In this document: one piece after another, positions 39,904-44,589 of the stretch | Position numbering within the stretch: the first letter of the stretch is position 1 | How the letters are laid out: each line of letters begins with the position of its first letter | Source of the DNA: Phytopythium helicoides | Lineage: Eukaryota > Oomycota > Peronosporomycetes > Pythiales > Pythiaceae | DNA: 64,000 bases | NCBI GenBank assembly: GCA_024867545.1 | Contig: JANFNE010000032.1 | Location: 124,001 to 188,000 of the forward strand | Reading direction: 5' to 3' | Notes under the pieces: generated by a model | Told to the model about the DNA's origin: nothing | Databases searched by the model: none | The model's input: the letters and a program-made list of their open reading frames with translations, nothing else | Position numbers and translations under genes: made by a program

Positions 39904-42766
39904 ATGGAGCGGATCCTCAACGCGGCGGACGCGGCGCCGGCCAAGAAGCGGCGCGCGCCCGCCGACCGCGTGCGGCTGCCGGCGATCGACGTGGCCGAAA
40001 ACCCGCTGCTGGCCGCGATGGGCGGCACGCCGCGCGCGGCTGCGGCGGCTGCGGCCGCGGCCCCCACGCCGCTGTCCCTGGCGGACGCGGATGCGGACGC
40101 GGATCCGCGGCCTGCGTGCAAGTCGGAGCGTCCGCAGGGCAAGTCGGAGCGTCCGCAGGCCGAGCCGCAGCCGCAGAGCGGCAAGCGCAAGCGCGAGGAC
40201 GCGGCGTACGTGGCCTACGCGCACGTGCACGCGCAGGAGGCCGGCGACGAGGGATTCTCGATCGACCCGGCCGACCGAGCGGTCGAGATGCGCGCCAACA
40301 AGCTCGTGCGGAGAGAGATCCTCATCGCGTCGCCCGCGGCCGCGGACGAGGACGAGTGGGACGCCGCGTCCGCCACGGACGCGCAGGGGGACGCCGCCGA
40401 CGGCGCGACGGCCGCCGACGAGCCCGAGCACTTCGACCGACAGCCAGTCGACATCATTCTGCACGTCTTCTCGTTCCTCGTGTCCCCAGACGACCTGCCC
40501 AACATGGCGCAGGTGTCCAAGCGCTGGCGAGAGCTCACGAGCAGAAGGTCGCTCTGCCGCACGCTGCCGTCCACGCTGCCCGACGGATCCGTCAACTGGC
40601 TCAACTTTCAGAACCTAGGCGTCAAGAACAAGGGCACGGAGGGCACCTGCTTCAAGTGCTGCCAGCGATCCAGCGGAAAGCTGCTCGCCATGAAGAAGGC
40701 GCGCGTATTCCCAAAGGTGAGCTCGTGGTCCCCACAGCGGACCGTGGTGCACGCGAGCTAACGAGTTGACTTGCTGTTGCCAGGGCGAGGGCGTGCCGTA
40801 CTACATGCTGCGCGAGCTCGCGGTGCTCAAGGGGGTGCGACACCCACACATTGCGGCCCTGGAGATGATCAGCCTGGCCAAGGACGAGCTGCACGTCTTC
40901 TTCCCGTTCGTGGATCGCACGCTGCACGAGATTATCAACCCGACGGGTGACCCCACTGGCGGCCGCGTGCTGCCTGAGCGCGTGGTGCGTCCTCAGTGCA
41001 CCTGGCTCCTCCCACAGATCTACAAATACTCACTACCACTTCATTTTTGCAGATCCGACGCCTGCTGCATCAATTGTTGGACGCCATCGCCTACTGCCAC
41101 CGCCGTGGCGTGCTGCACCGCAATCTGAAGCCCAAGCACCTTCTCATCCAGACCTCCAATCCTGCCTCCCTCGGTGTGAATCTTTTCACGAGTTGTTTTT
41201 GGGTAGCCACTCTGGACTAACATCACGCTGCCAGACGACGCGCAGCTACAGATATCGGACTTTGCCCTTGTGCGCGCCACGGGGATCCCACGCCGCACAT
41301 ACACGATGGAGGTCGTGACGCTCTGGTACCGGCCACCGGAAATCCTGATGGGTGTTCGTGGTTACTCGTCAGCAGTGGATATCTGGTCCGTTGGGTGCAT
41401 CTTTGCCGAGATGGCACAGGGCAAGCCGCTGTTCACGGGCATCTCGGAGATTGACCAGCTGTTCCAGATCTTTAGCAAGCTGTCGACGCCTACAGCTGAG
41501 TCGTGGCCGGGCTTCACGTCGCTGCCCAACTACCACTTCGAGTTCCCGCACTGGCAACGCCGGCCACTGCAGCGCCTTTTCCCGGCCATCTCGCCGCTTG
41601 GAATCGACCTGCTCAGTCGTCTTCTCGTTTACAACCCGGAGCAGCGTATCTCAGCCGAGGACGCGTTGCGCCACCCGTACTTCTCGGGCCAGAACCCCGA
41701 GTTCCCGCCGTTGGCGCCGTCTATCCCTATGGTCGACATGGGCTACGCGCTTGAGCGGGTGCAAACTAGCGCCACACCCGAACACGTGCGACTCTTTCAT
41801 GCTTACCTGCGCCAGACAGAGCGCGAGTCGTGGAAGGAGATCAAATACCTCAGGTGTGTGTGTGTTTCGTAGTGTTTTCGTTGTTGATGACCAAGATCGC
41901 TCACATAGTGCTGATTTGATGTCTGCAGCCGCCAGAAAACGCTGCGTCCTGCGCACCGTTCCATGCTCGTGGATTGGCTCATTGAAGGTATGTGACGATT
42001 AACTATAGCATGCTTTGTGTAGCTGTTGTACTAAGCAGCGCTAATGGTGATCAGTGGTGGATGTATTTGAAATGTGCCTGCGCACGGCGTTCCTGGCGGT
42101 TAACTACACCGACCGATTCCTGGACTTGGTGATGGTCAAGAAGACACGGTTCCAGCTACTCGGCGCGACGTGCCTGCACGTAGCGTCCAAGTGCGAGGAT
42201 GTGTCGTATATTGGCGTGGAAGACTTGGCGATGTGCGCAGACAACGTGTATACTTCCGCTGAAGTGCTCAAGATGGAGGAGAAGCTGCTGAACACGCTGC
42301 ATTTCACGTTATCTGTTCCCACGGCGCTCGACTTCCTCAACATCTACGAGCGCATGATCCCACCGCTGCAAAAGAAGACGTCGATGCTGGCGCACTACCT
42401 GTTGGAGCTTGCACTGCAAGAGTATCAGTTCCTCAAGTATTATCCGTCGGTGGTGGCCGCGTGCTGCCTATCGATGGCCATGTTCACAGTCGATGGCTTT
42501 CCTATGGTGCGTTTGCATGTCGCTGGTGGTCGAGTACTGATCATCTGCTAACTTGAGGACTTGATGCCACCAAATAGACTCAGGAGCTGGCGGACGCGTG
42601 CCAGTACCGCTGGTCCGACCTGAAGGACTGCATGGGCGAGCTGCAGACTCTGTACTCGACGTCTCCGTCCAACTCGCTGGCTGTCATCAAGAAGCGCTAC
42701 TCCAAGTCAGAGCGGTGCCAGGTGGCGACGCTGCTGCCGCCCTCGAGCTTCAGCATGGCCTTCTAG
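39904..42766 (+). CDS. F-box / CDK-like pseudokinase / cyclin fusion protein
   Basis: Seven exons: 39904-40716, 40784-40984, 41053-41173, 41235-41853, 41929-41987, 42055-42506 and 42578-42766. Introns are 61-75 nt GT-AG and all phases agree, giving 817 residues. Residues 1-175 are low complexity. The F-box is at 178-225 (DIILHVFSFLVSPDDLPNMA). The CDK-type kinase fold is at about 236-530: beta3 Lys264; helix C PYYMLRE in place of PSTAIRE with Glu282 kept; HRN at 360-362 where HRD is expected; Lys364 kept; His367 for the metal-binding Asn; DFA at 387-389; T-loop RTYTMEVVTLWYR with Thr402 matching CDK2 Thr160; PPE for APE. The cyclin box starts at MLVDWL (597-602), with the canonical Lys650 and Glu679, and a second cyclin fold runs to 817. 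Loss of catalytic Asp predicts an inactive kinase. An upstream in-frame ATG at 39739 would add 55 residues. Confidence 0.92.
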
Positions 42767-43345: not shown

Positions 43346-44092
43346 TTAGCTGCATTCGAACTCGATGCCCGCCGCGAAGAGAGAACCAACCACAGGGACG
43401 AATCCTACGAGCTTCTCGGCGATTGTGCCGACAATGCCACAGCCGTCATTGAAGCCAGGAGCAGAAGACGCACTGATGGTGAAGGTGATGGCGTCTGGGA
43501 GCAGCTGATCGCCGAGGTATGCGCTCACGCGAAGGGTCGAGGGAAGGTAGAGACCGTAGAAGTGGTCCATGCACTGCAGCATATCGCTGTCGCAAGATTT
43601 AGGACAGGCGACGGAACTCTTGGGGCCGCACGCCGCAGACGACGTGTACGAAACGGATTCTTGCCACGTGAAGCCGCGGCAAAGGGTGTACACGTCGTAT
43701 CGCTTGGCGATGGCGAGCTGGTTGTATGCCGCCCATGCCGTCTGCACGATGGCGTCACGCATCTGATATGTGTTGATGCCGGTCTCGTCGTTGGCTCCCC
43801 ACGCGCCGTTCATCTCCACGCGCACATTCAAGTCTGCTTGCGGCTCTTCTGCGGCTTTGCACGTGCTGGAGTAGGTCTGGTAAGTGTCGTCGTTGATAGC
43901 ACCTTGGCCGTTGCCCTCAGTCGCGTAGATCTTCTGCCACGTCGCGCCAAAGATGTTGAGGTTGCCGACATTGACGAGGCTGTCAGAGTACTCGACGTGC
44001 ATCTTGACCTTTTGCTTGGTCGCGGAGGTGTTGGCCTCCGAGTGGCCCACGAATGCCGCCCAAATGACGAGGAGGACGGCGGTGGTCTTCAT
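43346..44092 (-). CDS. Secreted Cys-containing protein, copy D
   Basis: Intronless, 248 residues from the ATG at 44092, the position matching the signal-peptide start of A-C. The longer open frame extends upstream to 44416, but that stretch corresponds to the promoter and leader in the other copies. The signal peptide has Val-Ile for Leu-Val in its core. All eight mature cysteines, the YQMRDAIVQTAW segment and the hydrophobic end (GFVPVVGSLFAAGIEFECS) are kept. By eye it shares features with C (MHV.YSDxLVNVGNL, KIYAT) and with A/B (GQGAIND, YTLC), so it may be intermediate or a gene-conversion product. Function not recognised. Confidence 0.87.
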   Translation of the reverse strand: MKTTAVLLVIWAAFVGHSEANTSATKQKVKMHVEYSDSLVNVGNLNIFGATWQKIYATEGNGQGAINDDTYQTYSSTCKAAEEPQADLNVRVEMNGAWGANDETGINTYQMRDAIVQTAWAAYNQLAIAKRYDVYTLCRGFTWQESVSYTSSAACGPKSSVACPKSCDSDMLQCMDHFYGLYLPSTLRVSAYLGDQLLPDAITFTISASSAPGFNDGCGIVGTIAEKLVGFVPVVGSLFAAGIEFECS

Positions 44093-44146
44093 GGAGACGT
44101 GAAGGGTAGTGGAGGGAAGACTGGGTGGAGGAGTGTCGAGGACGTC

Positions 44147-44162
44147 GAAGAATGGGAAGTGA
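44147..44162 (-). promoter_or_regulatory. Oomycete-type core promoter of copy D
   Basis: Minus-strand TCACTTCCCATTCTTC, 55 bp before the ATG at 44092, the same as in copies A-C. Confidence 0.7.
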
Positions 44163-44589
44163 GTGGATCGGAGTCGGGAGTCGGCGGTGTGTGCAGTATG
44201 CGCATGCTCGTTCGTGGGGATACCGGCGTCTGCGTCTGCTCTCACGGATTTGCTCCCAATCGTAGATGAGTGTTGGAGTTTTGCTGTCAGAGTGTCAGGT
44301 TGTGACTCACAGTAGTGAGAACAGCCGTGAGCACCAAAGGATCGCTGCCAAGTTTGCTGACAGATCAAAATGCTCTGGTTGATCACGAGATTTGCTCGCC
44401 CGCTTGACTGTACCACGCTTCCATGCCGGACTCAGTCCCAGGAGTACGGGAATATCGCACGGTGGATCGATAGTTTGGATTTGAATGTTGTGGCAATCAA
44501 CATATATCTGCGGCCTCTTCGGTCAATAATCTTTCCACAACCTGTCCGTCTCTCGTCGATACCGTGCAGGCATCCCAAAACTTATGCGC

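Follow-up and report, generated by a model that had tools for sequence, protein, structure and literature searches.

Proteins in which a cyclin-dependent kinase (CDK) runs on at its C-terminus into a cyclin were described in 2010 by Judelson and Ah-Fong, who reported four of them from Phytophthora infestans, supported by reverse transcription–polymerase chain reaction (RT-PCR), with relatives in other oomycetes, ciliates and Theileria (PMC3019232). In the available text of that report the Asp of subdomain VIb, termed catalytic, is replaced by Asn and the fusions are judged likely inactive; the PSTAIRE helix of one of the four is said to suggest possible auto-activation, and the cyclin domain is proposed as a possible regulator of protein stability. 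Two animal systems bring an F-box together with a cyclin, according to the parts of the papers available: cyclin F, an F-box receptor of the SKP1–CUL1–F-box (SCF) ubiquitin ligase that neither binds nor activates CDKs (PMC8670743), and SKP2, which acts with CKS1 and CDK2–cyclin A on p27 (PMC10318019). Here we describe a gene of the oomycete Phytopythium helicoides, found in a window of 64,000 nucleotides (GenBank assembly GCA_024867545.1, contig JANFNE010000032.1, positions 124,001 to 188,000), whose 817-residue product carries, in this order, an F-box, a CDK that is predicted to be catalytically dead and a cyclin nearest to cyclin A. We consider it moderately likely that this protein serves SCF as a substrate receptor and that the dead CDK–cyclin A-like pair itself is the part that binds substrates.

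Like the P. infestans fusions, the P. helicoides protein has a CDK followed by Cyclin_N and Cyclin_C and an Asp-to-Asn change in subdomain VIb, two features of that family (PMC3019232). It differs in its F-box, of which the main text available makes no mention and Table 2 has no entry, and in its His132, Ala147 and Glu15 changes, which go unmentioned in the two sections on these fusions (PMC3019232). The P. infestans models P0031 and P0037 begin at a Met within the F-box (MTLVSKNWRELTD...), which may explain the lack of an F-box in the 2010 paper. With animal cyclin F (CCNF/FBXO1) the protein shares an F-box followed by a two-fold cyclin, but a Pkinase domain lies between the two. To our knowledge, animal cyclin F has no kinase domain. 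As in the SCF–SKP2–CKS1–CDK2–cyclin A system, where the target is a CDK inhibitor, an F-box comes together with a CDK–cyclin A pair; there, however, the parts are separate animal proteins, the CDK is active and recognition is by the leucine-rich repeats (LRRs) of SKP2 and by CKS1, whereas here a single chain holds a kinase that is predicted to be dead, and Pfam finds no LRR in it. Canonical CDK1/CDK2–cyclin A/B complexes share the fold and the cyclin-side interface residues, but they consist of separate chains with HRD, Asn132, DFG and Tyr15 intact, while the present pair is fused and changed at all four.

The kinase–cyclin fusion was already known, then, and what is new is the F-box, the full pseudokinase signature and the spread through the stramenopiles. 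The original prediction did not say whether the arrangement had been published; its kinase–cyclin part had been (PMC3019232), whereas the open-licence PMC literature yielded no report of the F-box part and no paper describing the three-part F-box–CDK–cyclin family. Database names such as "cyclin-dependent kinase with F-box domain" (Achlya, Thraustotheca) and "protein kinase domain, F-box domain" (a Plasmopara record) indicate that the F-box domain call itself is already present in databases.

Gene structure and domain order

The gene has the length, the seven exons and the short canonical introns that had been predicted from the DNA (Table 1). Its start ATG is the earliest Met downstream of an in-frame stop, and the predicted introns are GT..AG, 61-75 bases long and join the exons in frame. 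Pfam finds all three parts in the order expected, with matches far above chance: an F-box-like domain at residues 181-220 (PF12937, E 1.8e-11, 44.1 bits against a cut-off of 24.3; a second F-box model, PF00646, E 2e-05, 24.8 bits against 20.5), Pkinase at 243-528 (E 7.2e-51), Cyclin_N at 568-691 (E 7.8e-35) and Cyclin_C at 693-809 (E 6.1e-24).

Table 1. Positions in the window of the fusion gene, its exons, domains and motifs
Feature	Position	Strand	Remarks
F-box–pseudo-CDK–cyclin gene, 817-residue product	39904..42766	+	7 exons, stop-free spliced translation
Exon 1: variable N-terminus, F-box, first part of kinase	39904..40716	+	F-box–kinase junction within exon 1
Exon 2	40784..40984	+	
Exon 3	41053..41173	+	
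Exon 4: kinase C-lobe, linker, cyclin start	41235..41853	+	single open frame
Exon 5	41929..41987	+	
Exon 6	42055..42506	+	
Exon 7	42578..42766	+	
N-terminal motif ENPLLAAMGGTPR	39997..40035	+	similar ENPxLAALGGTPR in several oomycete relatives
Stretch SIDPADRAVEMRANKLVRREILIASPA upstream of F-box	40258..40338	+	oomycete-conserved; similar stretch in Saprolegnia and Achlya records
F-box, residues 181-220	40444..40563	+	PF12937, PF00646
Pseudo-CDK domain (predicted), residues 243-528	40630..41683	+	exons 1-4; PF00069; nearest solved structures CDK3/CDK2
Glycine loop GTEG	40633..40644	+	Glu replaces Tyr15; E in 100/100 aligned relatives with a residue there
Cyclin-binding helix GVPYYMLRE (vs GVPSTAIRE)	40790..40816	+	
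HRNLKPKH (vs HRDLKPQN)	41116..41139	+	catalytic Asp to Asn, Mg-binding Asn to His; HRN itself 41116-41124
DFALVR (vs DFGLAR)	41258..41275	+	A in 99/100 aligned relatives with a residue there
Two-fold cyclin, residues 568-809	41801..42739	+	exons 4-7; nearest cyclin A
HRSMLVDWLIEV, counterpart of the cyclin A MRAIL/RxL docking patch	41954..42056	+	spans intron 5

The kinase begins in exon 1, which also contains the F-box, and ends in exon 4, where the cyclin then begins. Because each domain junction sits inside a single exon, splicing cannot have created the fusion. Introns 2 to 6 allow alternative in-frame splicing, with at least 1014 stop-free combinations among the sites tried; the choice adopted, itself a prediction, retains the conserved motifs and agrees with the length given before, and none of the choices tried makes or abolishes the fusion, both junctions being independent of them.

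A search for relatives returned 428 proteins with E <= 0.001, of which the best 120 were listed and 106 aligned; the 14 left out (P0105-P0111, P0113-P0115 and P0117-P0120) have no precomputed cyclin domain, and eight of them are named as of the mitogen-activated protein kinase type. The 17 top-scoring relatives are 77-87% identical to the protein across 99-100% of residues 170-817. A precomputed F-box-like match is present in 32 of the best 39; three of the others start inside the F-box and four are gapped there, which, together with the predicted nature of the splicing here, lends weak support to the idea that gene prediction or assembly has joined neighbours. The intra-exonic junctions, the same domain order in many independent records and the RT-PCR of the P. 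infestans kinase–cyclin fusions, as given in the available text (PMC3019232), leave such an artefact a negligible chance. Mis-joined neighbouring genes are ruled out by the junctions, as the original prediction had held, and a chimera of one lineage by the relatives: the parts are not separate genes in all of them, and the order is shared by oomycetes and other stramenopiles.

A CDK with a conserved pseudokinase signature

Residue numbers below follow human CDK2, used as a ruler whose motifs agree with the solved-structure alignments. Four positions carry the signature: Tyr15, in CDKs the inhibitory Wee1 site, is Glu; Asp127, the catalytic residue, is Asn; Asn132, which binds Mg, is His; and residue 147, within DFG, is Ala. 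Positions 15 and 147 are nearly or wholly invariant among the relatives (Table 1), as are Asn127, present in 94 of 95 with Ser in the remaining one, and His132 (96 of the 96 with a residue there); all four changes occur jointly in 90 of the 91 relatives readable at the four sites, the exception having Ser147. Lys33 (97/101), Glu51 (96/98), Asp145 (100/100) and the T-loop Thr160 (97/97) are retained, so that of the features of an active CDK the Lys33–Glu51 pair and Thr160 are in place and the HRD Asp and DFG are missing. Because HRN, His132 and DFA replace active-CDK residues, the kinase is predicted to be catalytically dead.

These inactivating changes were absent from the earlier account, in which the tethered cyclin binds its CDK permanently and the F-box links the pair to the SCF ligase. 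Read as a self-activated CDK, the protein would be kept on by its cyclin, and its F-box would unite kinase and ligase so that it phosphorylates its own degradation targets. The four retained residues just listed speak for such a CDK, as does the possible auto-activation seen from one PSTAIRE helix in the available text of the 2010 report, which also judges the fusions likely inactive (PMC3019232). The three-domain fusion on which that account was built stands; the permanently active kinase that it implied is at odds with the near invariance of HRN, His132 and DFA, and we regard it as very unlikely. A second search gave 38 new proteins, 27 of which were examined for motifs. HRN occurs in 23 of these together with DFA or DFS and with KPKH, which is KLRH in a single case; three are ordinary CDKs that retain GTYG, HRD..QN and DFG; and a nematode protein combines two GTYG loops with one HRN..QN and one HRD..QN.

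The predicted dead kinase does not look like a decaying one. Identity to the P. helicoides kinase is 84% in Saprolegnia, 61% in the brown alga Choristocarpus and 60% in Hondaea, where the corresponding values of the F-box are 67%, 27% and 19%, and the kinase is conserved above the cyclin in six of seven relatives compared, the exception being Phytophthora cactorum with 89% against 91%. The kinase, which ranks with the best-conserved parts of the protein, is therefore under strong constraint. Plain decay would lead one to expect neither this nor four changes that travel together, and one might suppose that Glu, Asn, His and Ala form a new catalytic or nucleotide-sensing centre; however, a scaffold role would likewise conserve a surface and the combination matches no known chemistry, so that we find a repurposed active site hardly likely at all. 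A candidate CKS-docking site on the pseudo-CDK keeps Glu208 in 95 of 99 relatives, its remaining positions being variable.

In the 49-Mb genome this gene is the sole exact match to the HRN..KPKH DNA pattern, although an intron within the pattern would hide further copies. Elsewhere, exact pattern matching gives one SKP1 gene and one PSTAIRE CDK with GTYG and DFG, the HRD codon of which lies at an exon boundary; thus the ordinary parts exist beside the fusion gene.

The cyclin and its interfaces

Compared by sequence only with solved structures, the cyclin half matches cyclin A2 at E 1.4e-42 and cyclin F at E 3.1e-20. It shows what is expected of an A-type cyclin, namely the cyclin A fold and the residues of the RxL patch. 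Many oomycete records of the family bear the UniProt label "Cyclin-F", which, as the cyclin is nearer to cyclin A than to cyclin F, appears to be an analogy at best. Orthology to cyclin F was rejected on the same ground and because a kinase intervenes.

We take Lys266 and Glu295 of the cyclin to be the residues that hold the CDK in CDK2–cyclin A; the first is kept in 96 of 98 aligned relatives, the second in 88 of 95. Next to Lys266, Phe267 is Cys in 89 of 98, and the CDK helix reads YYMLRE in place of STAIRE; a smaller residue of the cyclin would thus face larger ones of the kinase, as expected if the two halves had evolved to match, though this is suggestive only. Cyclin A contacts p27 through Ile213, Leu214, Trp217, Glu220 and Gln254, according to the part of the source available (PMC10318019), and at these positions the P. 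helicoides protein has Met, Leu, Trp, Glu and Gln. A model of the Saprolegnia orthologue (715 residues) has a mean predicted local distance difference test score (pLDDT) of 86.3 and a predicted template modelling score (pTM) of 0.86, and the matches found with the whole model by Foldseek and VIA-align are dominated by CDK and cyclin chains.

The F-box and its age

Folded alone, the F-box has SKP1-bound F-box proteins as its top structure matches, and 43 of the 50 listed match rows are titled SKP1/ASK1, SCF, F-box protein or ubiquitin ligase, all with weak scores; in sequence, the solved structure that it matches best is the F-box piece of SKP1–SKP2 (1fs1), also weakly at E 0.0059. A link to SKP1 and SCF, as proposed in the original prediction, is the natural reading.

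Among non-oomycete relatives, by which we mean rows scoring below the oomycete block, many of them unnamed metagenome proteins, Pfam finds an F-box-like domain in 43 of 59 (E <= 0.1). When six rows with fewer than 60 residues before GTEG are set aside, 53 N-termini remain. They were scored with a profile made from oomycete F-box regions only, which extends over the conserved linker to the glycine loop and scores higher for it. Out of 1060 shuffles the highest reached 13.3 bits, a score that 42 of the N-termini exceed, and the next highest 6.4 bits, which 50 exceed. Choristocarpus reaches 34.7 bits, Phaeothamnion 32.5, Discosporangium 31.4 and Tribonema 30.9; Hondaea has only 14.3. The F-box therefore looks ancestral to the family rather than a local addition.

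Distribution and descent

The closest named relatives, among the best 120 of 428, belong to Lagenidium, Phytophthora, Peronospora and Pythium. Named carriers of the kinase–cyclin pair range among oomycetes from Albugo through Saprolegnia, and beyond them include the thraustochytrid Hondaea, the brown algae Choristocarpus and Discosporangium, Tribonema, Phaeothamnion, Chrysoparadoxa and a divergent protein of Triparma, all seven classed by NCBI as Stramenopiles. No animal or land-plant member was recognised among the 158 proteins listed, most of which are nameless, nor did any name there correspond to the ciliate and apicomplexan relatives of the 2010 kinome paper.

A kinase tree was built from 49 rows and drawn with a midpoint root. 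In it a branch with support 100/100 and a length of 1.55 changes per column divides the five ordinary CDKs from the rest, and 12 oomycete rows form a single group with one unnamed row (99/97). The branching agrees with vertical inheritance within stramenopiles. Diverged Phytophthora copies (P0026, P0029 and P0031) make up one group (100/99). Records from the chytrid Batrachochytrium salamandrivorans BASA81 (P0091, on a long branch and unsurely placed) and the dinoflagellate Durusdinium trenchii (P0072) fall within a group of eight that holds Hondaea, and may for that reason be contaminant contigs.

The variable N-terminus and neighbouring frames

Two motifs, SIDPxxRAVExRAxKxVRREILIASPA and ENPxLAALGGTPR, recur across oomycete relatives within an otherwise variable N-terminus; the REILIASPA of the first is part of the conserved stretch that precedes the F-box. 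Both contain TP or SP sites, which may be sites of regulatory phosphorylation. A search of the N-terminus for a destruction box (D-box) gave no conserved match and scattered RxxL only, and patches resembling basic nuclear localisation signals lie at residues 11-17 and 93-98.

These sites bear on two other uses of a dead kinase. The pair might act as a decoy or competitor that sequesters CDK substrates, inhibitors or activators, the F-box serving mainly for timed self-destruction. Some F-box proteins do ubiquitinate themselves. The combination of a dead kinase with retained interface residues would suit a decoy, as would the recurrent TP and SP sites and the 2010 authors' idea, in the available text, that the cyclin domain regulates protein stability (PMC3019232); a plain degron would suffice for self-destruction, however, and most of the stramenopile relatives tested retain a globular F-box, which speaks for a lasting role in SCF, so that we hold a decoy to be unlikely. 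Alternatively, the protein could bind SKP1 outside any ligase, as a scaffold at chromatin, the centrosome or the division site. F-box proteins that work outside SCF exist, CUL1 binding is something we infer, and the basic patches would fit such a location. Cyclin F, the close analogue, does serve SCF as a receptor, in the text available (PMC8670743), and a scaffold without ligase seems quite unlikely to us.

On either side of the gene, an open frame on the minus strand at 38504-38857 matches FKBP-type peptidyl-prolyl isomerases (PF00254, E 5.9e-16), and another at 43346-44431, also on the minus strand, has a hydrophobic stretch following an internal Met and looks secreted, with no Pfam match at E 0.01.

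A CDK–cyclin pair as a proposed ubiquitin-ligase receptor

Taken together, the F-box, the full pseudokinase signature and the spread through stramenopiles make a ubiquitin-ligase receptor a likelier function than a self-activated kinase; the three-domain fusion of the original prediction is kept and the active kinase that it implied is given up. In such a receptor the cyclin would dock in cis on the YYMLRE helix and hold the kinase in its cyclin-bound shape, while the F-box, judging from its family, would bind SKP1 and through it CUL1. The RxL patch of the cyclin and the surface of the pseudo-CDK would capture proteins with CDK docking motifs, for example CDK substrates or inhibitors, and these would be ubiquitinated instead of phosphorylated. 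CDK docking motifs would thereby become degradation signals. What the data establish is the order of the domains, the lost residues with their conservation, and the folds as predicted; the working sketched here is a proposal built on them.

Several observations weigh against this. The F-box has weak structure-match scores; 11 of the 53 non-oomycete N-termini do not rise above the best shuffle, and three of those not above the second best; and Trp217 of the docking patch is absent in 11 of 94 relatives, for which reason the patch may have no docking role in the most divergent of them. A receptor remains the reading we prefer, and the F-box, conserved as it is among stramenopiles, suggests that the protein carries its own machinery for degrading cell-cycle proteins. 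We are more tentative, and would put the chances at somewhat less than even, about a bolder version: that the protein has been a one-chain SCF degron reader since the stramenopile ancestor, its CDK killed by Glu15, Asn127, His132 and Ala147 and held under constraint, turning docking codes into destruction and possibly switched by nucleotide or by T-loop phosphorylation.

If the receptor reading is true, one protein would unite F-box, CDK and cyclin, which the animal SKP2 system distributes over several proteins, and would illustrate how a ubiquitin ligase can take over a kinase complex as its recognition module. To the CDK–cyclin fusion pseudokinases, for which the 2010 study had settled on no role, it would assign a function that is concrete and can be tested, and it would point to a cell-cycle regulator common to oomycetes, a thraustochytrid and brown algae.
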